Below the pieces are notes generated by a model. The model did not search any database, was not told where the DNA came from, and saw nothing but the letters and a program-made list of their open reading frames with translations. A DNA stretch of 64,000 nucleotides from Elusimicrobiota bacterium (GTDB lineage: Bacteria > Elusimicrobiota > Elusimicrobia > JACQPE01): NCBI GenBank assembly GCA_016180815.1, contig JACPAN010000005.1, positions 62,001-126,000 on the forward strand, in the 5' to 3' direction. Every line of letters starts with the position of its first letter. The first letter of the stretch is position 1. The translations under genes and the position numbers were made by a program. Positions 6,513-62,170 of this stretch are shown here, one piece after another.

Positions 6513-7079
6513 ATGCAGGGCATTAAAACCGCCAGGGAGCAGCGCCATATTTCGCAGAGACGTTTGGCTAAGTTGGCCGGCGTTTCTTTTAGGTCCGTAC
6601 AGCTTTTGGAATCCAAAAAGCATAATCCCACGCTCGTTACCCTAAAACGTGTCGCCAAAACCCTCGGTTATTGCCACCAGGCGGTTGATGAGCGTTTGGA
6701 ATCCATCTTCGCGGCGCCTTCGGATTCCATCGTCGCCATATCGCAGCAGATTGCCCAAGAAGGCGAGGGTTCCTGGAAACTTTGGTTTTTTAATTTTGTG
6801 GATGCGTTCAGGCGCGATCGGCATCAAACCTATGTGGAATCACCGCCAGTTGAGCGGACTCCTCAGAGAATAAAGGCGTTGTTGGCTTCGGGATCTGAAA
6901 CGCTTTGCGATGAGATCGGTTTGACTGCGCCTTGGTGGTGCGCCGGGGTCGGCCCTTTAAACGAACCGTGGTTTGTTTCAGGGTTGGACAGCTTGAAACC
7001 GTCGGTCCTGATTGAAAGCCCCGTGCATTTCAGGAAGCGCAATATATTTGTGTTGAAGAATTTTTTAAAGAGGGCCTGA
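6513..7079 (+). CDS. XRE-family helix-turn-helix protein, predicted antitoxin
   Basis: 188 residues. Residues 1-60 form a Cro/C1-type HTH (KTAREQRHISQRRLAKLAGV, then SFRSVQLLESKKHNPTLVTL). The rest is an uncharacterised domain ending in GLDSLKPSVLIESPVHFRKR. The gene overlaps the next start by one base (TGATG). Pairing of an XRE protein with a DUF6036-like nucleotidyltransferase is a known toxin-antitoxin-like arrangement. I infer that this protein binds the 6479-6498 palindrome and represses the pair. The ATG has no Shine-Dalgarno, consistent with a leaderless transcript. Confidence 0.82.
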   Translation: MQGIKTAREQRHISQRRLAKLAGVSFRSVQLLESKKHNPTLVTLKRVAKTLGYCHQAVDERLESIFAAPSDSIVAISQQIAQEGEGSWKLWFFNFVDAFRRDRHQTYVESPPVERTPQRIKALLASGSETLCDEIGLTAPWWCAGVGPLNEPWFVSGLDSLKPSVLIESPVHFRKRNIFVLKNFLKRA

Positions 7080-7585
7080 TGCTTGATATCCCCTTGATGC
7101 GGCGGCTTTTTGCAGCGTTGAATAAAGAGCTTGCCGATAAGGATATTGTCGGGGAAATCGGGCTCTGCGGGGGCGCCGCCATGTGCCTGGCATTTCAAGC
7201 CAGAAGAGCCACAAAAGACATTGATGCCATTTTTGCGCCGTCCGGCGAAATTCGTAAAGCCGCGCGGCGTGTCGCCAAGGAATTTGGTTTGCCCGAGGAT
7301 TGGCTCAATGACGCGGCCAAGGGTTATTTTTTGACCGACCCGCCCAGGCAGGACGTGCTGGAGCTTTCGCATTTGAGAATTTGGGCTCCCAAGGCGGATT
7401 ATATGCTCGTCATGAAATGCCTGGCCGGCCGCGCCGACACTCAGGATACGGATGACATTAAATTTTTATTGAAATACCTCAATATCAAAGCTTCACCAAA
7501 AGTTTTTTCTTTAATCGCCCGCTACTGCCCCCATGCCCGCGTCCCGGCTAAAACGAAATTTTTGGTTGAAGAAATTTTAGGATGA
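7079..7585 (+). CDS. nucleotidyltransferase-fold protein, DUF6036/AbiEii-like, predicted toxin
   Basis: 168 residues. The motif LCGGAAMCLAFQARRATKDI followed by DAIF gives the GG...DxD pattern of minimal nucleotidyltransferases. A later QDTDDIKFLLKYL helix resembles the C-terminal helix of the DUF6036 group. It is translationally coupled to the upstream XRE gene. By family analogy it would transfer a nucleotide to tRNA or protein and be neutralised by its partner. Neither activity nor target can be read from the sequence. Confidence 0.78.
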   Translation: MLDIPLMRRLFAALNKELADKDIVGEIGLCGGAAMCLAFQARRATKDIDAIFAPSGEIRKAARRVAKEFGLPEDWLNDAAKGYFLTDPPRQDVLELSHLRIWAPKADYMLVMKCLAGRADTQDTDDIKFLLKYLNIKASPKVFSLIARYCPHARVPAKTKFLVEEILG

Positions 7586-11791: not shown

Positions 11792-13009
11792 TTACGGAGT
11801 CGCGGTCAACCGTTGGCAATTGACCATGCCTGAGCCCTGTTGTTCGGCGGTCAAGCCGGTCAACAAATCGGCATTGGTTTTCATCGCATCGGCCAGGGTC
11901 GAGGGCGTGAGCGTCGGGTTCTGGGCCAATTTCATGGCCGCCGCGCCGCTGACATGCGGCGTTGCCATCGAGGTGCCGGACATGGTGGCGTAGACACCGC
12001 CTTTGTACGTTGATTTCACGTCTTTCCCCGGAGCGATCAAATCCACCTCCGGTCCTTGGCTGGAGAAGCCGGCCGCTTGATCCGATGAGTCGCTGGCCGC
12101 GACAGCAATGACTTCAGGGTAGCGGGCCGGGTAGCTGACGCAATTCGTGCAGGGTCCGGAATTGCCCGCTGCAGCGACCACGGTGACGCCGGCATTATAA
12201 GTTGCGGTCACGGCGTCGTGGAACGACTGATTGTCCGAAGATGAGCCCAGGCTCATATTGGCGACTTTGCCGCCGTTGGCCGCGCACCAGTCAAGACCCT
12301 CGATGATATCCGAAAGCCAGCCGGAGCCGTTTCTGCTTAAAACCTTAACAGCCAGAAGTTGGGCCTGCGGGGCGACGCCGACAACGCCGATGCTGTTGTT
12401 TAAACCGGCGATGGTTCCGGCGACATGGGAGCCGTGGCCGTTGTCGTCATCCGCGGATTTGGAGGGATTGACGGCATTGTAGCCGCCGGCAATATTGGCC
12501 TGAAGATCAGGGTGATCAAGATCAATGCCCGTGTCAATGACGCAGACTTTGACGCCCGCGCCTTGACTGGCGGACCAAGCTTCAGGGGCTTTGACGCGCG
12601 CAATACCCCAGGGCGTTTCCTGAGCCGGTTGAGCGGGGGCCGCGCCTCCGGGTTTGCCGTGTTCTTCAACTCGGCCGTGTTCCCGTACGGAATCTTTGAC
12701 GACCGCAGCCTCAACGATCAAATCTTCATCCACGCGTAAAACATTGGGGTTGGTTTTGACGCTATCAGCGGCGCCTTCCGGTAAATGCGCGGCCACGGCG
12801 TTAATGGAACCAAGATTTTTTTTGACGCGTCCGCCGACGGCTTCCACGGCCGCTCGTTTAGCGTCATCAGTCGTTCCCGCTTGAAAAACCACGATGCGCC
12901 GGTTTCTGGCTTCGTCGCGGTTGAGATCACCATTATCTTTGTCAGCTTGAGCCACAGCCAGCAAGGGCATGAGTCCCAGCATCAATTGAATTACGATTTT
13001 TTTGTTCAT
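11792..13009 (-). CDS. secreted subtilisin-like serine protease (S8)
   Basis: About 405 residues from the second in-frame ATG. A signal peptide (NKKIVIQLMLGLMPLLAVAQ) is followed by an I9-type propeptide (RIVVFQAGTTDDAKRAAVEA), then the catalytic domain: Asp159 in CVIDTGIDLDHPDL, His192 in NGHGSHVAGT, oxyanion Asn in AAAGNSGPC and Ser347 in GTSMATPH. The ATG 27 bases upstream (13036) would add nine residues ahead of the signal peptide, and a GAGGAGG lies between the two ATGs, so I prefer the inner start. It is the last gene of a three-gene secreted-protein run and is followed by a strong terminator. A Cys pair (CTNC) may form a disulphide. Confidence 0.94.
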   Translation of the reverse strand: MNKKIVIQLMLGLMPLLAVAQADKDNGDLNRDEARNRRIVVFQAGTTDDAKRAAVEAVGGRVKKNLGSINAVAAHLPEGAADSVKTNPNVLRVDEDLIVEAAVVKDSVREHGRVEEHGKPGGAAPAQPAQETPWGIARVKAPEAWSASQGAGVKVCVIDTGIDLDHPDLQANIAGGYNAVNPSKSADDDNGHGSHVAGTIAGLNNSIGVVGVAPQAQLLAVKVLSRNGSGWLSDIIEGLDWCAANGGKVANMSLGSSSDNQSFHDAVTATYNAGVTVVAAAGNSGPCTNCVSYPARYPEVIAVAASDSSDQAAGFSSQGPEVDLIAPGKDVKSTYKGGVYATMSGTSMATPHVSGAAAMKLAQNPTLTPSTLADAMKTNADLLTGLTAEQQGSGMVNCQRLTATP

Positions 13010-13041: not shown

Positions 13042-13779
13042 TTAAGCGGTGCGGACTTCTGCAGGCGCCGGACTTAGGTCGGAGGCTGCTGCCGGGATGG
13101 CATCCGCTTCTTCTTGAGCCTTGTCCGCTTCATTGCCGTGCTGCACAGCTTCAACGGTATTGACAATTCCGGAGACCAGCCCCATGGCGCCCATCGTCAC
13201 CAGCGCGCCTAAGCCCCAGCTGGCCGGACTGAAAATGGCCATAATGCCCATGCCGATTTGCAAAATCGTTCCCAAAACGCCCAGCACCTTATCTACGGTG
13301 GACATTTTATCCCAGTCCGCGATCATCTGATAAACGCGGTAAATGGACAAGGCGAACAGCAGTCCCGCCGCCGCATAACCGAAAATCGGCATGAGATTAG
13401 GATAAGGACCCAAACCTAGAGTCAAGCCTGTAACCGAGCCGGCCACGGCCAAGCCCGAAATCCCGACGTTGAGCCAACTTTTGCCGGCTAATTCACGATG
13501 CGCCCTGGCCCGGTCCTCAAGGATGCCTTTTCGAATCTGCTGCGTTTGTTGATAAACCCGTTCTTCGTAATTGTCACCCGGTAAGCCGTCATAGGAGGCC
13601 ACTAAGACCGGCGCGCAGGCGCCGGGCGATTGAGCGCCGTCGTAAATCGAAGCCATGTCCGCCGCCGCCAGATCGGCTCCGGCCACGGAGGGCGAGGCGC
13701 AGGAATCAGGCTGGGCTGAGGATTGAGACGCGCAGAAGAAAAAACACAGGGCGATGAACGTGTGAAAAATATTTTTCAC
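13042..13779 (-). CDS. signal-peptide protein with about four C-terminal transmembrane segments, unknown family
   Basis: 245 residues from a GTG start. The frame is open further upstream, but the signal peptide (KNIFHTFIALCFFFCASQSS) starts cleanly here. A 100-residue polar, Cys-containing region precedes hydrophobic segments around WLNVGISGLAVAGSVTGLTL, IFGYAAAGLLFALSIYRVY and MGIMAIFSPASWGLGALVTM. A TATATT box ends seven bases before the GTG, again suggesting a short or absent leader. Its layout (signal, polar part, glycine-rich membrane end) resembles the proteins of the 39-45 kb cassettes. I cannot assign a function. Confidence 0.68.
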   Translation of the reverse strand: MKNIFHTFIALCFFFCASQSSAQPDSCASPSVAGADLAAADMASIYDGAQSPGACAPVLVASYDGLPGDNYEERVYQQTQQIRKGILEDRARAHRELAGKSWLNVGISGLAVAGSVTGLTLGLGPYPNLMPIFGYAAAGLLFALSIYRVYQMIADWDKMSTVDKVLGVLGTILQIGMGIMAIFSPASWGLGALVTMGAMGLVSGIVNTVEAVQHGNEADKAQEEADAIPAAASDLSPAPAEVRTA

Positions 13780-13857: not shown

Positions 13858-14436
13858 TTATCGAAGAAGGGCGTTTAGGCGTTCTTTGAAGGCCTCTTTC
13901 GTGACGATGCCGTGGAGACGATCGCCCGATTCCCGTCCGCTTTTAAAGAAGACAAACGTGGGCACGCTGTCGACACCCAGACGCCGGGCCACGTCGGTGT
14001 GATCCCTCGTGTTAACCTGCACAAAACGGATTCTTCCCGCGTATTCATCGGACAGGTCGCGAACAACAGGATACATGCGCCGGCAAATGGGGGAGCGCGG
14101 ATCGTGAAAATAGACGGCGACCGGAATCTCGGATTTTACGACGATATTCTCAAAATCGTCATCCCCGATTTCCTGCACGGTCAAAGGGGCGGCTTGATCG
14201 CTTTGTTCGAATTCCTGCGCCTGGGCGGCTGCGCTGCCGGGGAGATCGACGCGGCTTGGGGTTCTATTTGGACTGCGGCCTTTGAAGGCGGGCATGGTTG
14301 CGCCCGTCGCAGGAGCACCGTCTAACAGCGCGGTTAAGGCATTCTGAACCTGCGCGGCGTCATTGGCGAGAACCCAAGCCAATGGGTTCAATAGCAAAAC
14401 AACCGTAAAAATGGCCGGCCACAAGGATTTTTTCAT
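13858..14436 (-). CDS. secreted thioredoxin-fold protein lacking the first active-site cysteine
   Basis: 192 residues: signal peptide (KKSLWPAIFTVVLLLNPLAW), a low-complexity 60-residue linker, then a thioredoxin fold with VAVYFHDPRSPICRRMYPVV, FVQVNTRDHTDVARRLGV and the cis-proline loop DSVPTFVFFKSG. The usual WCGPC is RSPIC, so only the second cysteine remains. A disulphide-exchange cycle is therefore unlikely, and a monothiol, binding or chaperone role is possible. It is the first gene of the minus-strand secreted cluster and lies downstream of the double-dyad operator at 14477-14514. Confidence 0.85.
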   Translation of the reverse strand: MKKSLWPAIFTVVLLLNPLAWVLANDAAQVQNALTALLDGAPATGATMPAFKGRSPNRTPSRVDLPGSAAAQAQEFEQSDQAAPLTVQEIGDDDFENIVVKSEIPVAVYFHDPRSPICRRMYPVVRDLSDEYAGRIRFVQVNTRDHTDVARRLGVDSVPTFVFFKSGRESGDRLHGIVTKEAFKERLNALLR

Positions 14437-14476: not shown

Positions 14477-14514
14477 AGGACTTTAGACCTTAGTTAATAT
14501 AGGACTAAAGTCCT
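14477..14514. promoter_or_regulatory. double-dyad operator-like element between the thioredoxin-like gene and pyrD
   Basis: Two related 14-mers, AGGACTTTAGACCT (14477-14490) and AGGACTAAAGTCCT (14501-14514), flank a 10-bp AT-rich spacer. The second copy extends to a perfect 8-bp-arm dyad, ATAGGACT-AA-AGTCCTAT (14499-14516). A matching pair occurs at 62132-62170. Confidence 0.72.
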
Positions 14515-38364: not shown

Positions 38365-39231
38365 TTAAAAGTCGAATATTTTTTTAACGGTAGCTTCAAC
38401 GGTAAAGAGGCCGGAATCAGATTTTTTGTCCAGCGTGGAGTAGATTTCAGAACCCCAAACCATCTGGGCAAGGTAGGGCAGGTATTGGGTTAATTCGGCT
38501 TGGGAAGCCCGAAAAGCCGCCAGGCGGCGAAAAAGCGTGCCTCCTTTTTTCTTGCGGGCCATCTCATCATAAAATTTGACCGCCGGGGCGTATTTTGGCT
38601 GCTCGCCGAATTCTGCGCCATAGGACTGAGGATAAATAAAGAATCGTCCGGCATGGGGCGAATAGTAGTCGCCGGTCTTGTGGCGCCGGACAAGACCCGC
38701 CTCGGTCAACGCGTCAAGGGCTTTTTGAATTTTTTTAGAAGCAAACCCCAATAATTTGGCCAATGCCGGAACGCTCCAGGAATTTTTGTCATTGGAAAAA
38801 ATTTCAAAAACCCAGTGATTGGCCGGAGTTGCTTTGATAATTTTCGCTTGGCGTTGACTTAAATTATAACGCTTGGGCTCAACGGCTCGCTGCATGGCCG
38901 CTTGAAGGGGATGGCGTTGACGGCTGGTTCCACTGGTCGTCAACAGCGGCGCCAGCAAGTATTGGAACGCGTCGCGGCCCCATGCGGAGCTGATATAGGC
39001 CAGGGTAAATTCGCCAAGGGCATTCTGGTCGCTGCGCAAAAAGAGCATTCGCGCGAGCATTAAAAGGGTACGCGGGCGCGGGAGGGATTTTTCCGTTTCA
39101 AAATTAAGGTATTCATTGTAGGTAAATCCAAAAATTTCATAGCCGCCGTTGCTGCGGTAGAACCCAGCCGCTGTTTTAAATCCGGCCGCTTTTCGTAGTC
39201 GCGCTAAGACCTCCCCGAATTTTTCTTGCAT
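38365..39231 (-). CDS. TIGR02147-like DNA-binding regulator A
   Basis: 288 residues. The N-terminal 70 residues form a helix-turn-helix-like region (RSNGGYEIFGFTYNEYLNFE then KSLPRPRTLLMLARML). The middle holds a winged-helix (FSNDKNSWSVPALAKLLGFA, then KIQKALDALTEAGLVRRHKT). The C-terminal domain ends PDSGLF-like as SDSGLFTVEATVKKIFDF. It is closely paralogous to the gene at 41226-42092: equal length, same motifs throughout. TIGR02147 proteins are expanded in a few phyla and their ligands are unknown. It is divergent from the secreted-protein cassette A, with a 16-bp palindrome in between. Confidence 0.82.
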   Translation of the reverse strand: MQEKFGEVLARLRKAAGFKTAAGFYRSNGGYEIFGFTYNEYLNFETEKSLPRPRTLLMLARMLFLRSDQNALGEFTLAYISSAWGRDAFQYLLAPLLTTSGTSRQRHPLQAAMQRAVEPKRYNLSQRQAKIIKATPANHWVFEIFSNDKNSWSVPALAKLLGFASKKIQKALDALTEAGLVRRHKTGDYYSPHAGRFFIYPQSYGAEFGEQPKYAPAVKFYDEMARKKKGGTLFRRLAAFRASQAELTQYLPYLAQMVWGSEIYSTLDKKSDSGLFTVEATVKKIFDF

Positions 39232-39260
39232 GCTGCCTTAAGCCTAGCTCAAGAAAGAAG

Positions 39261-39276
39261 TTAAATCTAGATTTAA
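39261..39276. promoter_or_regulatory. 16-bp palindrome in the divergent control region of cassette A
   Basis: TTAAATCTAGATTTAA is a perfect dyad 30 bases from the regulator A start. The counterpart at 42122-42137 keeps 12 of 16 positions, including both outer AAAT/ATTTAA arms. I infer an autoregulatory site for the TIGR02147-like proteins. Confidence 0.65.
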
Positions 39277-39308
39277 TTTTTTTCACAGGCTGACGAATCT
39301 CTCTTTAT

Positions 39309-39362
39309 GGGACTTTTTGTCAGATAGACCCTAGGGGACCGGCGCGGCATCGTCTTTAATAT
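39309..39362 (+). promoter_or_regulatory. conserved promoter block of cassette A
   Basis: GGGACTTTTT (39309), GACCCTAGG (39327) and TCTTTAATAT (39353) occur at the same mutual distances as GGAACTTTTT, GACCCTAGG and TCTTTAATAT at 42170, 42188 and 42214. TAATAT could be a -10, ending five bases before the GTG start at 39368. No -35 consensus fits a 17-bp spacing, so the conserved GACCCTAGG may be an activator or alternative-sigma element. Confidence 0.6.
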
Positions 39363-39367
39363 TCTTG

Positions 39368-39967
39368 GTGAGAATTTCCTTGCTATCCATTTTTTTATTA
39401 TCGGAGGTTCTTCCTTTGCGGGTTTATGGCGAAACGCCCGAACAATTGAGCTCTCAGCCCCGGTTTTTTTTCGGCGAAGCCGGAACTGGGCCGTCGATGG
39501 CCTTACCCGTGAACCCCGGTCCATCGTCTACCAGGGCCGGCGGCGTCGGGAGGGGTTCGTTTAATGCCATGTCCGTCAGCCCTGGTTCCGGCGGATCGAG
39601 TTCGGACGGCGACGGTATTGAGGAGAGACCTTGGGAGGGCGGCGGCGGTTCAGCCCACCCGTCTTTAGTTCCCGGGGTTTTGGGTTTGGGGCTTGCTACC
39701 TTGGGTATCGGGGTGCTTTTAACGAGCAAAGGTTCTGCTGGAAAGCGCTTGATCGGTTTGGGATTTTTGGGTTTGGGCCTGGCCTTCGGCGCTTTAGCCG
39801 CCGGCGCTTTTTTGTGGCCTGTTTTCTTTCAGGTGTTGGGAGCGGTTCTGATGGGCTTATCCGTTGCGCTGGCGATCAAGGGGTCGCAAGATTTGGAACG
39901 CGAAAAAAGTAAGCCACAAAAATGGAATTGCGAAAAGTATCCGGAAATGTGCGAGGAGAGCAAATAA
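39368..39967 (+). CDS. cassette A protein 1: exported, Gly/Ser-rich, C-terminal membrane segments
   Basis: About 199 residues. The GTG at 39368 starts a short signal sequence (RISLLSIFLLSEVLPLRVYG). A polar Gly/Ser/Pro-rich region (SPGSGGSSSDGDGIEERPWE) of about 80 residues follows, then three glycine-zipper hydrophobic segments (GVLGLGLATLGIGVLLTS; RLIGLGFLGLGLAFGALAAG; VLGAVLMGLSVALAI) and a charged tail with CEKYPEMCEESK. There is no Shine-Dalgarno, and the codon lies five bases after TAATAT. A TTG three bases upstream is an alternative. The family is not recognised. Confidence 0.68.
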   Translation: MRISLLSIFLLSEVLPLRVYGETPEQLSSQPRFFFGEAGTGPSMALPVNPGPSSTRAGGVGRGSFNAMSVSPGSGGSSSDGDGIEERPWEGGGGSAHPSLVPGVLGLGLATLGIGVLLTSKGSAGKRLIGLGFLGLGLAFGALAAGAFLWPVFFQVLGAVLMGLSVALAIKGSQDLEREKSKPQKWNCEKYPEMCEESK

Positions 39968-39968
39968 G

Positions 39969-40079
39969 ATGAAAAGAAGGGTATCGAGGGGTGAGCCTGG
40001 TGCGGTCGCTATGACCATGGGCCTTAGCGCCGTCGGCGGCGTGATTGGCGCCGCTATCAGCGATTGGTTGGTTGACTAA
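39969..40079 (+). CDS. cassette A protein 2: 36-residue glycine-zipper peptide
   Basis: A 36-residue ORF that starts one base after the previous stop codon, with GAGGAG ten bases upstream. It has a basic N-terminus (KRRVSRGEPG) and a hydrophobic glycine-zipper segment, MTMGLSAVGGVIGAAISDWL. Composition and size resemble pore-forming or toxin/bacteriocin-like peptides, or a small membrane subunit. It has no counterpart in cassette B. Placement within a tight gene string and a proper ribosome-binding site support it being real. Confidence 0.6.
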   Translation: MKRRVSRGEPGAVAMTMGLSAVGGVIGAAISDWLVD

Positions 40080-40099
40080 AAATAAGGAGTGGATTCAAA

Positions 40100-40627
40100 A
40101 TGAAGAACGGATGGTCTAAAGAATTTTTGGCAATGGCGGCGGTTTTAATAGCAAGCAGCACGGCGGTTTTTGCCGGTTCACCGGCTTTAAACAGCGAGGA
40201 GGAAAAACAGGCGGCGCAGCCTCAGGTGATTATGGAAGGGAGTGAAAAACCCGACTACACGCTTGGCGTTTCCGGCAGCGATTGCGATGGAACGTTCGAC
40301 AAGTGTGTTGTAGCGCCGGTTTCGCCTCTTGTTTACCCTAACAAAAGTGATCTTGAGGCGCGGGAGCAATGCAGTTTGGTTTGTGACGGCGCTCCAAAAT
40401 TCACTAAAGCCGCAAGAAATTTAATTTTGGCGCCCTATGCCCTGGCAACCACGGTTTACAACACGGTTAAATGGCAAGCAAGCAAAGTCGACAACCCGCT
40501 TGCCAAAGTCGGCGTCGGTCTTTTTGGCCTTGCTGAAGGTCTTATAGTCGGCGCTTTTGTCCTTGTCGTTGCGTTGTTCTTCTCTGTTTTTGGTCTATTG
40601 GCCGGCGCTTTTACAGGAAATTGGTAG
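40100..40627 (+). CDS. cassette A protein 3: exported, C-terminal membrane domain; paralogue of 42759-43436
   Basis: 175 residues. The signal peptide is KEFLAMAAVLIASSTAVFAG. A polar part with Cys residues (GSDCDGTFDKCVV, EQCSLVCDG) leads to ARNLILAPYALATTVYNTVK and a glycine-rich double membrane segment ending in AGAFTGNW. The last 75 residues align with those of the 225-residue protein of cassette B (ARNIVLSPYTLVATVYNTIR ... IGASSGRW). AAGGAG lies ten bases before the ATG. Function unknown. Confidence 0.78.
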   Translation: MKNGWSKEFLAMAAVLIASSTAVFAGSPALNSEEEKQAAQPQVIMEGSEKPDYTLGVSGSDCDGTFDKCVVAPVSPLVYPNKSDLEAREQCSLVCDGAPKFTKAARNLILAPYALATTVYNTVKWQASKVDNPLAKVGVGLFGLAEGLIVGAFVLVVALFFSVFGLLAGAFTGNW

Positions 40628-40639
40628 GAGGATAAAAAA

Positions 40640-40747
40640 ATGAAGAGAATATCGTCATTATCAATCTTCGTCATCTGCATTCCGTTCCTTATCGGTAGGG
40701 CTAAAAAAGGAGACGGACCCTGTGCGCGTCAGCGGCTCTACCGGTGA
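40640..40747 (+). CDS. cassette A protein 4, 5' portion: signal-peptide ORF, apparently frameshifted
   Basis: An ATG with AGGAGG eight bases upstream encodes a signal sequence (KRISSLSIFVICIPFLIGRA) and then stops after 35 residues. Skipping one base at the A6 run (40703-40708) would join it to the 137-residue frame beginning at 40722. All other genes of the string start with a signal peptide and this frame supplies the one missing from its neighbour, so a single gene of about 164 codons is likely. Confidence 0.55.
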   Translation: MKRISSLSIFVICIPFLIGRAKKGDGPCARQRLYR

Positions 40748-41135
40748 AGCGATAAAATTTTTGTCCACCGACTTCAAAAATGTCAGAACAAATTTCCATG
40801 TGGTCGAAAATCCAAACACAATTCATATCCGAAGCATTCAATATGCAAGCCGAAGGGCGGATAAAGTCGGTTTTTTTGTCGGTGTTACCGCAGGCGTCGG
40901 GGGCTTTTTGTTGTCGCCTAGCGTGCTCCTTATTACCGAGTTAAAAAGTAAAGGAAGAGCCGCTTGGGTGGCGGATGAGGGCGGGATGTTTTGTTTGAAT
41001 GCCGCTTTGGCCGTGGGGTTTTATTTTTTGGCGAAAGGTGTCTACAACACTTGGTTTCGTGACGGCGTTTATCAACGGGCCTATCAATACGCTCAGGACA
41101 ATCCTGTTGTTACTGATCCTGACCGAAACGATTAG
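40722..41135 (+). CDS. cassette A protein 4, main portion: two-segment membrane protein
   Basis: 137 residues from a GTG that has AAGGAG nine bases upstream, so independent initiation is possible. A polar part (FHVVENPNTIHIRSIQYASR) precedes two membrane segments (VGFFVGVTAGVGGFLLSPSV; MFCLNAALAVGFYFLAKGVY) and a charged tail. On its own it has no export signal; the preceding ORF carries one in another frame. It could be a natural frameshift, a slippage site, or a sequencing error in the A6 run. Family unknown. Confidence 0.6.
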   Translation: MRVSGSTGEAIKFLSTDFKNVRTNFHVVENPNTIHIRSIQYASRRADKVGFFVGVTAGVGGFLLSPSVLLITELKSKGRAAWVADEGGMFCLNAALAVGFYFLAKGVYNTWFRDGVYQRAYQYAQDNPVVTDPDRND

Positions 41136-41225
41136 ATGAAAAAGTAGTTGATTTCGCCCGGTTGGCTTTACCCATCCCGAAATTTTATCCATAACTTAAT
41201 CGCGGCGGTTGGACGCTTTTAAAGG

Positions 41226-42092
41226 TTAGAAATCGAACATTTTTTTAATGCTGGCTTCGACCAAGAATAAGCCGGAGTCCGGTTTGGGTTTGAGCGTCGA
41301 ATAAATATCAACACCGTACACCGCATGGCCGAGGTAAGGGATGAAATTGGCCAACTCGGATTCCGAAGCGCGCACCGTCAGCCAGCGCTGGAAAATGATT
41401 TTCGGTTTTTTATTGACCTCGATGTCCGCCGAAAACTTTTTGAGTTGAGCATAGCCGGGCACGTCCGCGCTCTGCGGCGCCGGTGAACGCGGCAAGAGGA
41501 TGAATTTTCCTGTCAGCGGGCTGGAAAAGCGCCCGTCTTTGTTGCGATCGACCAGCCCGACTTGCCGCAGTTTCTCGATTGCTTTGGCGATTTGAGCTTC
41601 AGGGAATCCCAGAATCTGCTTAAGACGCTGCGTATCCCAAGGCTCGTAATCATTGACCATCACTTCATAAATCCAAAACGTCAGAGCGGAGCTTCTGATC
41701 ACGTCAGCTTGCTTTTGCGTCAGGTTTACTTTTTTCACATCCACGGCCTGTTTCAACGCTTGCTGCATCGGCCCCGCGCCGGCAGGCGCGCTTGCGGATT
41801 GAAAAGCCGGCAAGAGGATAGAGTGCAAGATTTCCTTGCCCCAGAGGGATTCAAGATAAGCCAGCGTGAAATCCCTTAGCTTGCCGAGATCGGCTTTAAG
41901 CCTGAGCATCTGGGTCAGGGCGATGAGCGTTTTGGGCAGGGGGAGAGATTTGGCTTTTTCGAAATTTAAATATTGGTTGTAGCTGAACCCGAAAACCTGC
42001 CTCCCTCCGTTGGCTTTGTAAAACCGGGCCGCCGCGGTGTAGCCTTCTTCTTCCCGAAGTCGCGCGAGGCATTTAGCGAATTTGTCATTCAT
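41226..42092 (-). CDS. TIGR02147-like DNA-binding regulator B
   Basis: 288 residues, paralogue of the 38365-39231 product. Matching stretches include NGGRQVFGFSYNQYLNFEKA (against NGGYEIFGFTYNEYLNFETE), KSLPLPKTLIALTQML, VNLTQKQADVIRSSALTFWI, the winged helix TQRLKQILGFPEAQIAKAIE and the end PDSGLFLVEASIKKMFDF. It is divergent from cassette B across a control region that aligns without gaps to that of regulator A. It is convergent with the last gene of cassette A. Confidence 0.82.
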   Translation of the reverse strand: MNDKFAKCLARLREEEGYTAAARFYKANGGRQVFGFSYNQYLNFEKAKSLPLPKTLIALTQMLRLKADLGKLRDFTLAYLESLWGKEILHSILLPAFQSASAPAGAGPMQQALKQAVDVKKVNLTQKQADVIRSSALTFWIYEVMVNDYEPWDTQRLKQILGFPEAQIAKAIEKLRQVGLVDRNKDGRFSSPLTGKFILLPRSPAPQSADVPGYAQLKKFSADIEVNKKPKIIFQRWLTVRASESELANFIPYLGHAVYGVDIYSTLKPKPDSGLFLVEASIKKMFDF

Positions 42093-42121
42093 CGTATTTC
42101 AAGTCTAACCCCAAAAGAAAG

Positions 42122-42137
42122 TGAAATCATCATTTAA
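42122..42137. promoter_or_regulatory. imperfect dyad in the divergent control region of cassette B
   Basis: TGAAATCATCATTTAA corresponds, at an offset of exactly 2861 bp, to the perfect palindrome TTAAATCTAGATTTAA of cassette A. The arms are conserved and only the centre and one outer base differ. Confidence 0.6.
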
Positions 42138-42169
42138 CTTTTTTAACCGCCCACCCCATCCAGGTTTGT

Positions 42170-42223
42170 GGAACTTTTTACCGGTTGGACCCTAGGTGAT
42201 AGACGCTTTCTCATCTTTAATAT
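42170..42223 (+). promoter_or_regulatory. conserved promoter block of cassette B
   Basis: GGAACTTTTT, GACCCTAGG and TCTTTAATAT are spaced identically to the cassette A block. The GTG equivalent to the cassette A start (42229) is present and in frame with the ATG at 42253, but here an AAGGAGG Shine-Dalgarno has placed a second start downstream. Confidence 0.6.
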
Positions 42224-42252
42224 CTCTAGTGATTTGCCTAAGGAGGATAAAG

Positions 42253-42762
42253 ATGAAACAGATGAAGCCTGTAATTTGCTTTTGCGCCGTCGTGTTTGGT
42301 TTGGCTATCTCATGCGCGCAAGCGGCGCCGGGAGCGCCGGCCGGAGGGGATGAAGAGAGGGAGGCCGCCGGCCTAGCGGCTCATTTCGGCGAAGGCAGGC
42401 AAGCCGGCTCCTCGGCAAACCCATTTAACCTTCAAGCCGCATCACTTACTGCCGGCAAAGCGTCTGGGAATATGGCGGCATTGCCCAGAACCGGTGTATT
42501 GCCCTACCCGACCTATTACGATATGAAAAATATGCGAGTGGCCGCCCTACGGGCCGATGCCAAGGAGAAACTGATCTTGTCCATTGGAAGCGCCGTGGTT
42601 GGCTTCGCGGCGATCTGTGTGGCGGCTTTCTCCAGTATACCTGGGACGGTGGCGGCTATGGTTGCCGTGTTGGGCGCTGTGGCATTGCTCTGGGGCGTAA
42701 TCTTTGGCGTGACGGCCTACCGGCGTTATATAGCCGCTAATCTGATAACGAGTTGGTTATGA
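42253..42762 (+). CDS. cassette B protein 1: exported, C-terminal double membrane segment
   Basis: 169 residues. The ATG has AAGGAGG seven bases upstream; an in-frame GTG at 42229 is a possible leaderless start. The signal peptide KPVICFCAVVFGLAISCAQA is followed by APGAPAGGD, a polar region, and two membrane segments (KLILSIGSAVVGFAAICVAA; AAMVAVLGAVALLWGVIFG). The signal-cleavage region is shared with the next protein down to identical DNA. Its stop overlaps the next start (ATGA). Function unknown. Confidence 0.75.
   Translation: MKQMKPVICFCAVVFGLAISCAQAAPGAPAGGDEEREAAGLAAHFGEGRQAGSSANPFNLQAASLTAGKASGNMAALPRTGVLPYPTYYDMKNMRVAALRADAKEKLILSIGSAVVGFAAICVAAFSSIPGTVAAMVAVLGAVALLWGVIFGVTAYRRYIAANLITSWL
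42314..42344 (+). repeat. 31-bp exact repeat, copy 1 (encodes AQAAPGAPAG)
   Basis: Identical to 42805-42835, and in the same reading frame at the signal-peptide cleavage site of two adjacent genes, 491 bp apart. Confidence 0.9.
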
Positions 42763-43436
42763 AAAAAATTGTTGTTTCAGCTTTGTTGATTTTGACTATC
42801 TCTCGCGCGCAAGCGGCGCCGGGAGCGCCGGCCGGGGGTGATTCTTGGGAGAAAGAATCAGCGAGTTTATCTCAGACGTTTCATGGTTTCAAAGAAGGTC
42901 CGCGGGGCGCCCAACCTGTTAGGGTGGCCAATGTTGATTATGGGGTCGAAGTCGAAATGGAAGAGCAGGCCGCGCGCGCAACCGATCCGGAAACGAAGAA
43001 ACGACACCTGGAAGCCCTTCAAAGATTCCGGGCCATGAGAGGCAGGCCGCCTTTAAGCGTTCCTTGGAAAGCCGCTTATTTTAATGACCTTTATGGCTGC
43101 GGTGATTGGTGGACGAATCCTTCTGAACAAGAGAGGTTGAAGTCTTTCAATTGTTCGGTTTGGCAACCCGCGAAACCCTTGGTGAGCCCCGATGAAAACG
43201 GTGCAATGCGTGCAGGGGTATCTGCGCGAAATATCGTCTTGTCCCCTTATACCCTCGTCGCTACTGTCTATAACACCATACGGTGGCAGGTAAGAAGAGT
43301 CAGCGGCCCGCTTAAAGTTGTGACCGGGTTGTTCGGATTTCTTGAGGGAATCATTCTGGGCGTGGCGTTTATGGCGGCGGCCTTGGTAGCCGGACTTATG
43401 GGGCTAGTTATCGGCGCCTCGTCGGGCCGTTGGTAA
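42759..43436 (+). CDS. cassette B protein 2: exported, C-terminal membrane domain; paralogue of 40100-40627
   Basis: 225 residues from the ATG overlapping the previous stop. The signal peptide KKIVVSALLILTISRAQA is followed by the same APGAPAGGD as the preceding protein. A polar region with AYFNDLYGCGDWWTNPSEQE and the single Cys of FNCSVWQ precedes ARNIVLSPYTLVATVYNTIR and a glycine-rich membrane pair ending GASSGRW. The C-terminal third is homologous to cassette A protein 3. Unknown family. Confidence 0.78.
   Translation: MKKIVVSALLILTISRAQAAPGAPAGGDSWEKESASLSQTFHGFKEGPRGAQPVRVANVDYGVEVEMEEQAARATDPETKKRHLEALQRFRAMRGRPPLSVPWKAAYFNDLYGCGDWWTNPSEQERLKSFNCSVWQPAKPLVSPDENGAMRAGVSARNIVLSPYTLVATVYNTIRWQVRRVSGPLKVVTGLFGFLEGIILGVAFMAAALVAGLMGLVIGASSGRW
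42805..42835 (+). repeat. 31-bp exact repeat, copy 2
   Basis: Exact copy of 42314-42344 in the next gene, same frame. No synonymous change has accumulated, unlike the rest of the two genes, which are unrelated in sequence. Confidence 0.9.
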
Positions 43437-43505
43437 ATGCGCATGAAACTTGTGCCGAATCATTGTCCCTCCTGGACGGACGACTGGCGATATAAATGGG
43501 GATAA
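43437..43505 (+). CDS. possible 22-residue tryptophan-rich peptide
   Basis: An ATG directly abutting the previous stop codon (TAAATG) opens 22 codons: a basic start, MRMKLVPNHC, then PSWTDDWRYKWG with three Trp. It ends four bases before the next gene's start region. No clear Shine-Dalgarno is present, though stop-start adjacency could permit reinitiation. It may also be a remnant. Confidence 0.35.
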   Translation: MRMKLVPNHCPSWTDDWRYKWG

Positions 43506-43509
43506 CTAA

Positions 43510-43983
43510 ATGAAAATAAAAATTCAAATCGCACTAATCTCAGTTTTGATTACAGGGGAATTTGCTTTATCCCATGCGGGTCAAAATGATGACTTGGCCG
43601 CAGAAGCACAAGGCCGTTTTGACGGCGCCCAAACGCCTACGGATGAGCGCATTTACACTACGCGCGAGGTGCCTTTGGAGCAGGCCTATGATTACGTGCC
43701 CTTTTGCCGGGGTCTTAAAGCCCCTGCCCCTGCCGAAGGCCCCTCTCTTCAAGAAAGAAAACAGGCAGCGGCTCGCCGCGGGGCTAGGACGGGCCGCTAC
43801 GTTGGGCAAGGGGCCGGCTATATCCTGGGCTTTGCTATCCCCATGACGCTCGGTCTAACCGGAACTCTGTCAGGATTTTGGGTTTACGCCGGTGTCATGA
43901 TGGGCCTTTTCGCCATCGGCCCCATTCTAGGCGCCGCCATGGGTTGGACACTCGGCCGGCTGATCGGCTACTTAAAAACTTAA
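43510..43983 (+). CDS. cassette B protein 3: exported, glycine-rich membrane pair
   Basis: 157 residues. Signal peptide KIKIQIALISVLITGEFALS, a polar region with one Cys (YDYVPFCRGL), a basic stretch RKQAAARRGARTGRYVGQ, then two membrane segments (GYILGFAIPMTLGLTGTLSG; AGVMMGLFAIGPILGAAMGW). The layout matches its neighbours. GGGGATAA before the ATG gives a modest ribosome-binding site. Function unknown. Confidence 0.72.
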   Translation: MKIKIQIALISVLITGEFALSHAGQNDDLAAEAQGRFDGAQTPTDERIYTTREVPLEQAYDYVPFCRGLKAPAPAEGPSLQERKQAAARRGARTGRYVGQGAGYILGFAIPMTLGLTGTLSGFWVYAGVMMGLFAIGPILGAAMGWTLGRLIGYLKT

Positions 43984-43999
43984 AAGGAGACGGGTCATC

Positions 44000-44914
44000 A
44001 TGCAAAAAATAACATTTTTAATTTTGTGCTCTGTTATTGGCTTTAGTTCTCCAACAGCATCCGCCGAATCAATCAAGAGGGCTCGAAACCACCCGGTTTT
44101 ACGCCGCCGGCAGCCATCCCAAACGCCTCCTCTTACCCTGTATCATGCCTGCCGCGTGTATTGGCCAAGAGGCTATGTGTTTACACAACATCCTTCTTCA
44201 AATGGGTCCTACCATAATCTCTGTTTTGGAAGTCATGCGCCAAGCTTTTGGAAACGCTGGGAAAAAACAACAATGAATCTGATCATGCCGATTCAACTCT
44301 GCGCAGTAAATGACCGGTTCAAGGGCTGTCCTACATGCACCATGGTCGATGCCCACTCCATAGATTCAATGCTGCGGGAACACCTGACTTTTATGCGCAC
44401 CGGTTTCCGGGAGCTAGCAGACTCTCTTGATCGTTATGTTGGCTCTGCCAAAAATGAGGGCCATTGGAATCACCGTCATTATGAAATGTTTGAGAAATTT
44501 AACAAGGCGTTTCTTTACGAAATGAGCAAGTTGAAGCTTTATCAAACGTGGGATTCTGAACTGGTTGCCAACCAATTGGCCCAGCATGCCAAATTATCCA
44601 AATCAATTGATTATGCAGTTAAAACATGTCAACTGGAATTTCCAGCGTATGACATCCGGACTCAATCTTATTCCACCAAGGTCAATGCTCAGTGCCATTC
44701 TCCCGTATCGAAGTGCCTCTATGAGCAAGCAAATGGGTCACTTTTTCAAGGTAAAGCTTCCGGCAAAAACTGTGTTATGGAACGTGCGCTTGATCTGGCC
44801 GACGAGCAACTTCAAACTGATCTTAAAAAGCTTATGGAAATGAACAACTCCGGCCAAAAAATCTTTAGTCACTTATGGCTGGAATCCGGGCCCCTGCCGG
44901 ATGCCGTGCCCTAA
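44000..44914 (+). CDS. cassette B protein 4: secreted, cysteine-rich, no membrane segment
   Basis: 304 residues. The signal peptide is KITFLILCSVIGFSSPTASA. The mature part has about nine cysteines, including LCAVNDRFKGCPTCTMVDAH and NAQCHSPVSKCLYEQANG, and a charged helical middle. It is the only member of the string without a C-terminal membrane domain, so it may be the soluble partner or effector. AAAAGGAG lies ahead of the ATG. I do not recognise the family. Codon use is more AT-rich than in the neighbouring genes. Confidence 0.7.
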   Translation: MQKITFLILCSVIGFSSPTASAESIKRARNHPVLRRRQPSQTPPLTLYHACRVYWPRGYVFTQHPSSNGSYHNLCFGSHAPSFWKRWEKTTMNLIMPIQLCAVNDRFKGCPTCTMVDAHSIDSMLREHLTFMRTGFRELADSLDRYVGSAKNEGHWNHRHYEMFEKFNKAFLYEMSKLKLYQTWDSELVANQLAQHAKLSKSIDYAVKTCQLEFPAYDIRTQSYSTKVNAQCHSPVSKCLYEQANGSLFQGKASGKNCVMERALDLADEQLQTDLKKLMEMNNSGQKIFSHLWLESGPLPDAVP

Positions 44915-44937
44915 GCGCCGAAAGAATTTTAATTTAA

Positions 44938-45051
44938 AACATCGACAATCTCCAAGGTTCCGAACGCATCCTCGATAGCGAAGTCGAACAAGCCGCGGAT
45001 GATTGTTTGCTTGTGTTTGAGCAAGTCGTGGCTGAATCTCAAAAGCAATAG
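44938..45051 (+). pseudogene. possible C-terminal gene remnant
   Basis: A 37-codon stop-to-stop frame without any usable start reads like coding sequence: IDNLQGSERILDSEVEQAAD then DCLLVFEQVVAESQKQ. It is acidic and helical with no low-complexity bias. It sits between cassette B proteins 4 and 5. It may be the tail of a deleted cassette member. Short length makes this weak. Confidence 0.3.
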
Positions 45052-45071
45052 CGAAAAAAAATGCGGGGACA

Positions 45072-45695
45072 ATGAAAAAATTAAAAACGATGGCGGTCGT
45101 TTTGAGCGGTTTTTTGTCCGGGGTGACTCCTCTTGTTGCCGATCAACAGGATTTAATAAGCGGTTGGCAGCATTTGGGGATGATTAATGACGGTGCCCGG
45201 ACATCCGGCCGCGTAACGAAGAAACGTCCGGTTCCGGTGGAGAAGCAATATTTGCCGGAGTTATCTTTTTCCACGGCTTCCAGACTCCCGATGCAACGCG
45301 TTTTTATCAGCCAAAAGGCGGGCGAGATAGCTGGAGGGATTACGGTCGGCGCCGCGCTTTTGGGTATTCCTTCTTATTATCTTAGCCGGTGGTGGACGAG
45401 GGGGGCCCAGAGATTCATCGGAACTGCCGGGGTTGTTGTCGGTGGATCCGGCGGCTTGATTGGATCGGCGACACAGGGGGCAATGATGAAGAAGCATGGC
45501 CAGGGAATCAGTTTATTGGTTTCGTCGTTGGGCGCCGCCGTGGGAGTTGGGTTTGCATCCGGCTTGGCCGATATCGCATACACGCGTTCATCAACAACAT
45601 TTTTTGAAACGGCAAGCTGGATGGCTTTTTCCGGCGGTGTTGCCGGCATCGCCGGCGCCGGCGCCGTTCTTCTCGTTAGATATTTTTCGAATTAA
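45072..45695 (+). CDS. cassette B protein 5: exported, four glycine-rich membrane segments
   Basis: 207 residues. Signal peptide KKLKTMAVVLSGFLSGVTPL, a polar basic region (ARTSGRVTKKRPVPVEKQYL), then four Gly/Ala-rich hydrophobic segments (GEIAGGITVGAALLGIPSYY; FIGTAGVVVGGSGGLIGSAT; ISLLVSSLGAAVGVGFASGL; AFSGGVAGIAGAGAVLLVRY). The density of GxxxG motifs suggests close helix packing, as in pore-forming or channel proteins. It is the last gene of cassette B, convergent with the PorV-like gene. Function unknown. Confidence 0.72.
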   Translation: MKKLKTMAVVLSGFLSGVTPLVADQQDLISGWQHLGMINDGARTSGRVTKKRPVPVEKQYLPELSFSTASRLPMQRVFISQKAGEIAGGITVGAALLGIPSYYLSRWWTRGAQRFIGTAGVVVGGSGGLIGSATQGAMMKKHGQGISLLVSSLGAAVGVGFASGLADIAYTRSSTTFFETASWMAFSGGVAGIAGAGAVLLVRYFSN

Positions 45696-45727: not shown

Positions 45728-46717
45728 TTAGAACGCCATACTTAGGCCGACTCTAGGAAAAAATCCCAAATCGCCGAACGGGGCCAGGGCCGCGTCGATG
45801 GTGAGGCCGCCCAGGTATAAACCCAGGCCGAAGGAGAGTTTTCCCGTAAAGCTTTCCGTTTTATTTTTTGAATTGACCCCTACGCGCACGGCCAGGCCGC
45901 TTTCCGGATCTCCGCCGTCTGCCAACGGTTCGTTGTTGAAGGCGAGTTTCCACTCCATGGAGGCCGCGCCGTAAGCCGTTTGATCCACGGGCGCGATCAC
46001 ATCCAAGGCCAAAAAAGCCATCTCGCCCATTTTGTAGCCCATTTGCGCTTGGCCTTTCAGAGGAAGGGCGACGCTGCGGCTGCCCCATTTCACCGGCGGT
46101 CCGATATTAACGGCCGCCAGAGAGAAAGAGAGATTGGGATCGGCGAAGCGCCCGTAGGGGATATTCATGCCTAAGTTGGCGGCCATGCCTTGCCCGGAGA
46201 TGCCCGGCCCGATTTTAGATTGCAGGAAGGAAAGGCCCGCGCCCCAGCGAACGGGTTGCGGTCCACCGGCCACAGTCAAGCCGACCGCCATATCCGCGGG
46301 GCGGAATTCCCCGGTTTTATTGCCTAAAACGTCATAGAGGCCCAACGAGGGCTGAAGGACTTCATGCACGGCCAAGACGATTTTTTTTGAGCCGACGGGA
46401 TGGCCGTAAAGCGCATTGGCCTGGATAATGCCTTCGGGCAAAAATCCGCTGCCTAAAGCGAAGTTGCTGGCATCGGGGGCGCCCAAATAAGAAGCCGGCA
46501 TTTGAAGGCCGGCCAGAGGATCGGCCTGCGATGGATTGAGCGTCTCAGCCAACGCCGCGCTTCGCGGCGAGGCGGAGAGCTTCAAGAAACTAGCCGCGGT
46601 CGTTCCTTTGGCCTTGTTGCTGAAAGCGCCTTCCGGCAGGAATCCAGCGTCTAGAAAAGACGTAAAAAAGGTGATGAGTGTGGTCAACGTGAAAATGACG
46701 AAAAACCGGGTAGTCAA
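45728..46717 (-). CDS. PorV/PorQ-like outer-membrane beta-barrel protein
   Basis: 329 residues from a TTG. Signal sequence, then TAASFLKLSASPRSAALAET, which parallels the AxFLxIGxGARAxGMGxA opening of PorV/PorQ (UPF0164-like) barrels. The rest alternates strands (GAGLSFLQSKIGPGISGQGM; VRVGVNSKNKTESFTGKLSF) and ends in an aromatic residue (FFPRVGLSMAF), typical of BAM substrates. Its role may be a barrel of a secretion pathway. It starts 33 bases from hisC on the other strand. Confidence 0.75.
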   Translation of the reverse strand: MTTRFFVIFTLTTLITFFTSFLDAGFLPEGAFSNKAKGTTAASFLKLSASPRSAALAETLNPSQADPLAGLQMPASYLGAPDASNFALGSGFLPEGIIQANALYGHPVGSKKIVLAVHEVLQPSLGLYDVLGNKTGEFRPADMAVGLTVAGGPQPVRWGAGLSFLQSKIGPGISGQGMAANLGMNIPYGRFADPNLSFSLAAVNIGPPVKWGSRSVALPLKGQAQMGYKMGEMAFLALDVIAPVDQTAYGAASMEWKLAFNNEPLADGGDPESGLAVRVGVNSKNKTESFTGKLSFGLGLYLGGLTIDAALAPFGDLGFFPRVGLSMAF

Positions 46718-61418: not shown

Positions 61419-62096
61419 TCAGTACGGCCGGTCGTTTTGACAGACCGAGGATTGGGCTTGCTCCCAATATTGACCGTTGATGATGCCGTCGTAGCGTTCA
61501 TGGGTGCGGCGTTCCTCGATCTCTTCGGCCGTAAAAATTTCGGGCATTTGTTCGGCCTGCGTTCGGGCCAAGGCCGCGGCCTGTTCGATTTCTTCGGCAG
61601 ACGAAGGGTCAACGATGGCTTCGATCACATTGCCGATGCCCAGGGTCATTAAGCCGAGCATGGCATCGCGGCGTTCGCGAGGGCGTCGAGCGGCAGTTTC
61701 TCGATGGGCGACGAAGCGTTCTCGGTTGACGATTTGGTACCTGCGTTGAAAGCGTTTCCTGGTTTCAATAAGGCAGGAAGCGCGGCACCAGCGTTCACCC
61801 CAGTCGTTTTCCCTGCAGGTGCCGAGCACCGGAGTTCTGGTTTGTGTTTCTTCAAGAAGGGTTTCATCAAGCAAAACCGTGCCGTCAGGCCGCACTGGGC
61901 CCGCTGGGGTGCGGCGTTGGATCAATGTTGTGCGTGCGGCGTTGGGACGAATCCGCGGTTGATCGCCGAAGGCTTCGTTGATGCTGCGCTCCATCCGCGT
62001 ATGGTCCCGGCCGCAGAGATCGCAGGCAGCGCCGGGCGGATTCCCCCAGGCGAGCATCGGGAACAAAAGAACGATACAGGCTAAAAGCCTTGTCAC
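61419..62096 (-). CDS. exported Arg/Glu-rich protein with Cys pairs, unknown
   Basis: 225 residues from GTG. Signal peptide TRLLACIVLLFPMLAWGNPP, a CDLCGRDH motif, then VLGTCRENDWGERWCRASC and a long Glu/Arg-rich helix with one moderately hydrophobic patch (AMLGLMTLGIGNVIEAIVD). It is upstream of the P60 gene and downstream of the double-dyad operator at 62132-62170. No family recognised. Confidence 0.68.
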   Translation of the reverse strand: MTRLLACIVLLFPMLAWGNPPGAACDLCGRDHTRMERSINEAFGDQPRIRPNAARTTLIQRRTPAGPVRPDGTVLLDETLLEETQTRTPVLGTCRENDWGERWCRASCLIETRKRFQRRYQIVNRERFVAHRETAARRPRERRDAMLGLMTLGIGNVIEAIVDPSSAEEIEQAAALARTQAEQMPEIFTAEEIEERRTHERYDGIINGQYWEQAQSSVCQNDRPY

Positions 62097-62131
62097 GATT
62101 TAATTATGGCCTGCCCTAGCCTGCGGACCTA

Positions 62132-62170
62132 GGGCCTTTGGTCCCGATTTTATACTAGGACTATGGTCCC
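62132..62170. promoter_or_regulatory. double-dyad operator-like element, second instance
   Basis: GGGCCTTTGGTCCC (62132-62145) and AGGACTATGGTCCC (62157-62170) flank an 11-bp AT-rich spacer (GATTTTATACT). The architecture and sequence match 14477-14514. The first copy is an imperfect dyad. Here too a divergent pair of genes, one for an exported protein, flanks the site. Confidence 0.7.

Follow-up and report, generated by a model that had tools for sequence, protein, structure and literature searches.

A candidate clade-specific envelope-protein regulon in an Elusimicrobiota genome, with two paralogous regulator and secreted-protein cassettes

Two paralogous cassettes

The window analysed here, a 64,000-nucleotide stretch of an Elusimicrobiota bacterium genome (GenBank assembly GCA_016180815.1, contig JACPAN010000005.1, positions 62,001 to 126,000 of the forward strand), carries two paralogous cassettes, A and B, in each of which a gene for a 288-amino acid (aa) regulator faces away from a string of small genes encoding secreted proteins. 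Regulators A (38365..39231, -) and B (41226..42092, -) are 43% identical, and the forward-strand strings extend over 39365-41135 (cassette A) and 42253-45695 (cassette B). A preliminary description of this DNA, made from the letters and translations, had reported this layout, together with a soluble Cys-rich member of cassette B and homology between two members across the cassettes; these observations are confirmed, and the accompanying interpretation is partly supported, as discussed below.

Genes and signal peptides were called using simple purpose-written scripts and heuristics rather than dedicated predictors. Signal peptides were clear by this heuristic in the proteins starting at 39365, 40100, 42253, 42759, 43510 and 44000, and by eye in that starting at 45072, whilst hydrophobic Gly/Ala-rich segments occupied the C-termini of the string proteins, except for the soluble 44000. 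Most string proteins had low identity to one another, and many carried, behind the signal peptide, a short motif in which a helix ends in [F/I/Y]-[D/E]-G-[A/G/S].

Cassette A opens with a gene (39365..39967, +) encoding a signal peptide, a weak form of the motif (PRFFFGEAGTG) and three hydrophobic segments. The start of this gene is uncertain (39355-39420), with the predicted -10 almost abutting the TTG/GTG start and a GGAGG lying farther downstream. It is followed by a Gly-rich 36-aa open reading frame (39969..40079, +), previously described as a glycine-zipper peptide, which exists as reported and is possibly coding, with a weak coding score. The secreted protein 40100 (40100..40627, +) has an IMEGS motif and a C-terminal hairpin, and is the homologue of 42759 in cassette B (blastp E 1.3e-22, 37% identity over 124 aa). 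In the last gene (40640..41135, +), signal peptide and body lie in different frames. No signal peptide is encoded within the open reading frame 40722-41135, since the peptide begins at 40640 and is read in a different frame; the switch occurs close to a six-A run at 40703-40708, and the gene is therefore broken or misread.

Cassette B comprises two secreted hairpin proteins (42253..42762, +, with an HFGEG motif; 42759..43436, +, with the variant FHGF) that share the stretch AAPGAPAGGD directly behind the signal peptide, a secreted protein with an FDGA motif and a Gly-rich hairpin (43510..43983, +), the secreted, soluble, Cys-rich protein 44000 (44000..44914, +) and a secreted protein with a weak motif (MINDGA) and hydrophobic Gly/Ala segments (45072..45695, +). 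A gene for a PorV-like outer-membrane barrel (45728-46717) adjoins cassette B, and another lies near a related cassette on contig C21 (L009, 5713-6681).

None of the string proteins reached a curated Pfam or NCBIfam cut-off or gained support from PHROGs or PADLOC, in agreement with the preliminary finding that they match no familiar family. The PADLOC anti-phage defence profiles gave only weak membrane-segment or helix-turn-helix (HTH) matches (<=14.8 bits).

Regulator family and candidate operators

Eight regulators of this kind are encoded across six contigs of the genome, and six of them, namely both window copies, those on C21, C3 and C15 and the second copy on C16, face at least one secreted motif gene. 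The first C16 copy has three secreted motif genes within 5 kb, and the C13 copy lies downstream of co-directional secreted genes that lack the motif. With eight such regulators in the genome, most of them beside secreted strings, the arrangement seen in the window goes beyond chance. The suggestion that the system was duplicated in tandem is too narrow, because regulators and members of the putative regulon are dispersed genome-wide. Directly before an intact copy on C16 lies a remnant of 47 aa that looks like the C-terminal end of a ninth regulator (L010, 5208-5351).

The nearest family was PF14394 (DUF4423), which matched regulator A at 26.4 bits (E 6.9e-6) and regulator B at 29.5 bits (E 7.8e-7), the latter half a bit under the cut-off of 30, with half of the profile covered in both cases. 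The earlier assignment to TIGR02147 (Fsuc_second; threshold 50 bits) was dropped, as this profile gave no match at E <= 1 anywhere in the genome. Literature searches on TIGR02147 and on Elusimicrobiota turned up nothing usable. A structural model of the regulator, built from 15 sequences (predicted local distance difference test score (pLDDT) 85), comprised an all-helical, HTH-like N-terminal part and a central winged helix, and a fold search of the PDB returned weak similarity to winged-helix proteins only. The best of these matches, an ArsR-type protein (E 0.022), was not used.

Palindromes that are candidate operators lie between the divergent genes of both cassettes, AAGTTAAATCTAGATTTAATTT at 39258..39279, 26 nt from the start of regulator A (p ~0.01 by shuffling), and AAAGTGAAATCATCATTTAACTTT at 42118..42141, 25 nt from the start of regulator B (p ~0.03 by shuffling). 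These TTAAATCTAGATTTAA- and GTGAAATCATCATTTAAC-type palindromes are equally distant from the promoter element GACCCTAGG in the two cassettes. Near-identical palindromes, TTATATCCAGATTTAA and TTATATCCAGATATAA, precede two separate operons on C16, and a palindrome with 11-bp arms accompanies the C3 regulator. The sequence GAAATnnnnATTTC occurred at six distinct places in 640 kb of fetched DNA against ~0.6 expected, a frequency that is biased because the stretches were picked around matches, unlike the genome-wide pattern counts given below. One of these sites is upstream of a regulator in the related genome G002, and the other five precede G002 promoters of this kind that are unlinked to it, four being almost identical copies.

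Promoter elements

Two DNA elements recur upstream of the secreted genes. The pattern GACNCTAGG has 14 copies in 2.85 Mb, compared with 54 for the reversed pattern, and nine of the 14 precede secreted genes or operons at a distance of ~200 nt or less (both window cassettes, C15, two on C16, C21, C2, C9 and C10). A binomial test of this placement gave 1e-14 to 4e-10 at a background of 1.2 to 4%, the background being our own estimate. Most copies are followed ~18-21 bp on by a -10-like box; in the cassettes, the element takes the form GACCCTAGG, at 39327..39335 (+) with TAATAT at 39357-39362 in cassette A, and at 42188..42196 (+) with TAATAT at 42218-42223 in cassette B.

In G002, eight of the 10 exact GACNCTAGG copies are intergenic, most with an AT-rich -10 ~19 bp on, and the same lytic transglycosylase gene is preceded by the element in both genomes. 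Every copy of the GACCCTAGG element in G001 and G003 is intragenic, and its role as a promoter general to the whole GTDB family was rejected. Searching with the element uncovered additional motif proteins at L075 and L105. At G002 contig ends (L089, L091, L093 and L094), near-identical promoter copies occur and, where the sequence behind them is readable, it encodes a signal peptide and then a motif of the IFEGA type; this repeated gene family seems to break the assembly.

The second element, GGACTnnAGTCC, was enriched in four genomes of the GTDB family (17, 18, 8 and 10 sites vs 1-3 in reversed controls), mostly intergenic and usually 40-200 nt upstream of secreted genes, and its search revealed further motif proteins at L113, L115, L136 and L144. 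The palindrome GGACTWWAGTCC, like GGACTnnAGTCC, corresponds to the core of the DosR box TTSGGGACTWWAGTCCCSAA (PMC2275270), and GACCCTAGG may be a variant of the DosR-like box placed over the -35 position. As would be expected of a DosR/NarL-type regulon, GGACTWWAGTCC palindromes are concentrated upstream of member operons and the genome encodes a receiver-GerE regulator, one clear protein of 229 aa (C26:19713, 64.6 bits) beside a histidine-kinase-like gene. In G003, two DosR-like boxes stand ahead of a type IV pilin-like gene (L133, 188-246, C32), and the box may therefore control more envelope genes than those of the tagged proteins.

A shared motif behind the signal peptide

The motif was found in about 30 secreted proteins of this genome and related genera. 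A de novo search at width 12 in 83 predicted secreted proteins of regulator loci returned A-E-x-A-x-x-V/T-F-D-G-G with a log-likelihood of 223, compared with 180-200 in four shuffled sets; at width 8, nothing in the same loci exceeded the shuffles. A plain DNA pattern for FDG gave 201 matches genome-wide, mostly expected from ordinary coding sequence, and was not used.

A profile built solely from 19 segments of this genome recovered its own members and picked up additional ones encoded by secreted-protein genes on C9 and C13. The recovery of its own members is circular because the profile was trained on them, which applies to the E-values of 40100 (5.7e-4) and 43510 (4.8e-4). Among proteins of related genera, which lay outside the training set, the seven best matches were all small secreted proteins, from G001 and G002, that carry the motif close to the mature N-terminus, and five of them exceeded the best reversed-sequence control (4.9 bits).

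Matches to the profile extended to an operon elsewhere in the window (14436-11792, -), in which a thioredoxin-like protein with LLDGA (13858-14436) and a protein with four transmembrane segments (4-TM) and IYDGA (13042-13779) are encoded together with a subtilisin-like protease (11792-13009), behind two DosR-like boxes, GGACTAAAGTCC and GGACTTTAGACC (14478..14513). In G002, the same box precedes a pair of genes whose products are 44% (4-TM protein) and 70% (protease) identical to these two. The same short motif thus stands on unrelated mature proteins, as would be anticipated for an N-terminal sorting tag: hairpin proteins, the thioredoxin-like protein, the 4-TM protein and a 685-aa protein at L113. 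At 6513-7585 of the window, the gene of a small XRE-type regulator and one for a nucleotidyltransferase-like protein overlap, in appearance a toxin-antitoxin- or AbiE-like pair.

Family 1 and recurrence in related genomes

One set of motif proteins, termed family 1, has nine matching places in this genome and consists of the motif, a beta region with a Cys pair, the signature YxIVDRExY, a hairpin and a final strand. The window member (61419..62096, -; YQIVNRERF) has a degenerate motif and, upstream, a degenerate DosR-like box, with GGCCCTAGG at 62128 and GGACTATGGTCC at 62158. Each of the four GTDB-family genomes carried family 1, as did one further genome among the 147 class members searched. 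In an alignment of twelve members, few columns are almost invariant, and the motif D is one of them, whilst the flanks are variable. The predicted structure (pLDDT 80 overall, ~90-97 in most of the beta part) places two helices (119-153 and 157-185) ahead of the last strand, such that the hairpin is preceded and closed by a beta domain; fold searches gave no match, the best E being 0.57 for the PDB and 0.06 for viral models.

The nearest named relative with family 1 is the groundwater Elusimicrobia metagenome-assembled genome JACQWW01, which was equated with G002 through identical sequence. G002 contains a six-gene operon with a make-up like that of cassette B, comprising hairpin proteins, a 330-aa protein resembling 44000 (weakly, with 22% identity and E 2e-5 in a single comparison) and a family-1 pair, as well as a protein related at 36% identity to one from the C21 cassette. 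Among the fetched loci, the only cassette proteins with relatives were 40100/42759 and, weakly, 44000. The strings therefore recur in architecture, not gene for gene.

Interpretation and alternative explanations

We give about an even chance to the explanation that best accounts for these data, namely that both cassettes belong, as modules, to a clade-specific envelope-protein regulon of an Elusimicrobiota lineage combining a NarL-type regulator, local autoregulating winged-helix proteins and a docking or sorting tag. The recurring regulators, common promoter elements, N-terminal motif and recurrence in another genus support the earlier view of a regulated, undescribed envelope system, the regulation being predicted from DNA elements and encoded regulators. 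Under the regulon model, a NarL/DosR-type response regulator would most likely read the promoters, through GACCCTAGG over the -35 position and often a GGACTWWAGTCC palindrome farther upstream, and each 288-aa winged-helix protein would most likely bind a palindrome of its own in the divergent intergenic region and thereby control both its own gene and its string. The products, with a Sec signal peptide, a short helix ending in an FDG[A/G/S]-like stretch and mostly a Gly-rich alpha hairpin, would, judging from their signal peptides, be exported by Sec. The tag would then most likely dock or sort unrelated exported proteins, including hairpin, thioredoxin and 4-TM types, to a single machine or site of the envelope. 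As to what the products do, the occurrence of the lytic transglycosylase, subtilase and thioredoxin in the same operons is most consistent with a set that builds or remodels an envelope structure. More tentatively, helix-FDG[A/G/S] could constitute a new kind of N-terminal tag by which proteins are sorted or docked in a dedicated, single-lineage envelope system, with hairpin proteins as substrates, a DosR-like switch and a new winged-helix family that tunes each cassette.

Several results weigh against the regulon model and its tag. A regular-expression test of the motif was moderately above shuffles (8/33 vs 1.8 expected), and the same expression also matched other secreted proteins (8/71 vs 3.5), whilst two of the seven top cross-genus matches scored under the best reversed control. 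String members 39365, 44000 and 45072 and the C13 string have no motif or a weak one, the C15, C21 and C13 palindromes were not above shuffles, and four of the G002 promoter copies are near-identical repeats, hence not independent.

We assign a serious though minor share of probability to a second explanation, in which the regulon is real but the FDG stretch, instead of being a tag, serves as a propeptide or spacer that shuffling of gene starts has carried along with the promoter and signal-peptide region, and the mature proteins perform unrelated envelope jobs. The AAPGAPAGGD stretch common to 42253 and 42759, the several unrelated kinds of body behind the motif and the near-identical promoter-plus-leader copies at G002 contig ends all agree with this explanation. 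However, the D or DG of the motif is kept as the flanks diverge, in family 1 and in the 4-TM family alike, a pattern indicative of selection acting on the motif. A slightly slimmer possibility is that a stress- or hypoxia-type regulon serves to build a structure in the envelope or to remodel the wall, with the hairpin proteins assembling in a membrane around the lytic transglycosylase, subtilase and thioredoxin; the DosR-box-like sites and the presence of these enzymes in the same operons suggest as much, yet the loci were not seen to share any gene for a scaffold, ATPase or secretion component, and the box does not itself give the signal sensed. This possibility is compatible with the preferred regulon model and does not exclude it.

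The preliminary description had proposed pore-forming, bacteriocin-like or contact-dependent toxin components, a role that found no positive support here and that we consider improbable. Small secreted Gly-rich hairpin proteins in diversifying paralogous sets, and a predicted family-1 structure that joins a beta domain to a long alpha hairpin, would suit secreted antagonism proteins, but the string genes include no immunity-like partner, dedicated exporter or large exoprotein, and the profile databases yielded only weak membrane-segment matches, with no fold match. Least probable of all is coincidence, whereby fast-evolving orphan secreted genes lie beside a common regulator family and resemble one another through low complexity behind the signal peptide. 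The low identity among most string proteins, and the scarcity of relatives of the cassette proteins in the fetched loci, would be expected in that case, but coincidence would not account for two DNA elements being enriched genome-wide ahead of these genes, nor for the recurrence and motif matches across genera.

The regulon model recasts orphan genes of an uncultured phylum as a regulon that can be tested, for which operators, promoters and members are predicted and a candidate targeting tag is proposed, and the DNA box and tag provide handles for finding more members. If the tag is indeed a sorting signal, it would point to an unrecognised envelope machine in a poorly studied diderm lineage.

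Comparison with known systems

The regulators resemble the putative regulators of DUF4423 (PF14394) and TIGR02147 in length, in a winged-helix region aligned to DUF4423 positions 7-75 and in their paralogous expansion, but are distinguished by a conserved HTH-like N-terminal part (FGxxLxxLRxEAGF...YxxYLNxExGxSLP). The Gly/Ala-rich alpha hairpins of the string proteins recall glycine-zipper hairpin and holin-like proteins, although no such family matched (holin PF07332 reached 11-15 bits vs a cut-off of 28.4) and family 1 has a predicted beta domain before, and closing, its hairpin. With the DosR (NarL/LuxR-type) regulon of Mycobacterium tuberculosis, the system shares the palindrome core GGACTWWAGTCC and a receiver-GerE protein encoded in the genome, whereas the phylum and target genes are different, the regulon here is predicted from its sites, and the second element, GACCCTAGG, departs from the perfect DosR box.

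N-terminal sorting signals, such as the sorting residues of lipoproteins, are short conserved stretches near the mature N-terminus of otherwise unrelated proteins. The FDG motif is likewise short, conserved and near the mature N-terminus on unrelated bodies, and we know of no receptor for a motif of this type. Unlike lipoprotein sorting signals, it has no lipobox Cys, and is instead formed by a helix with an FDG core that lies up to ~30 residues from the cleavage site.

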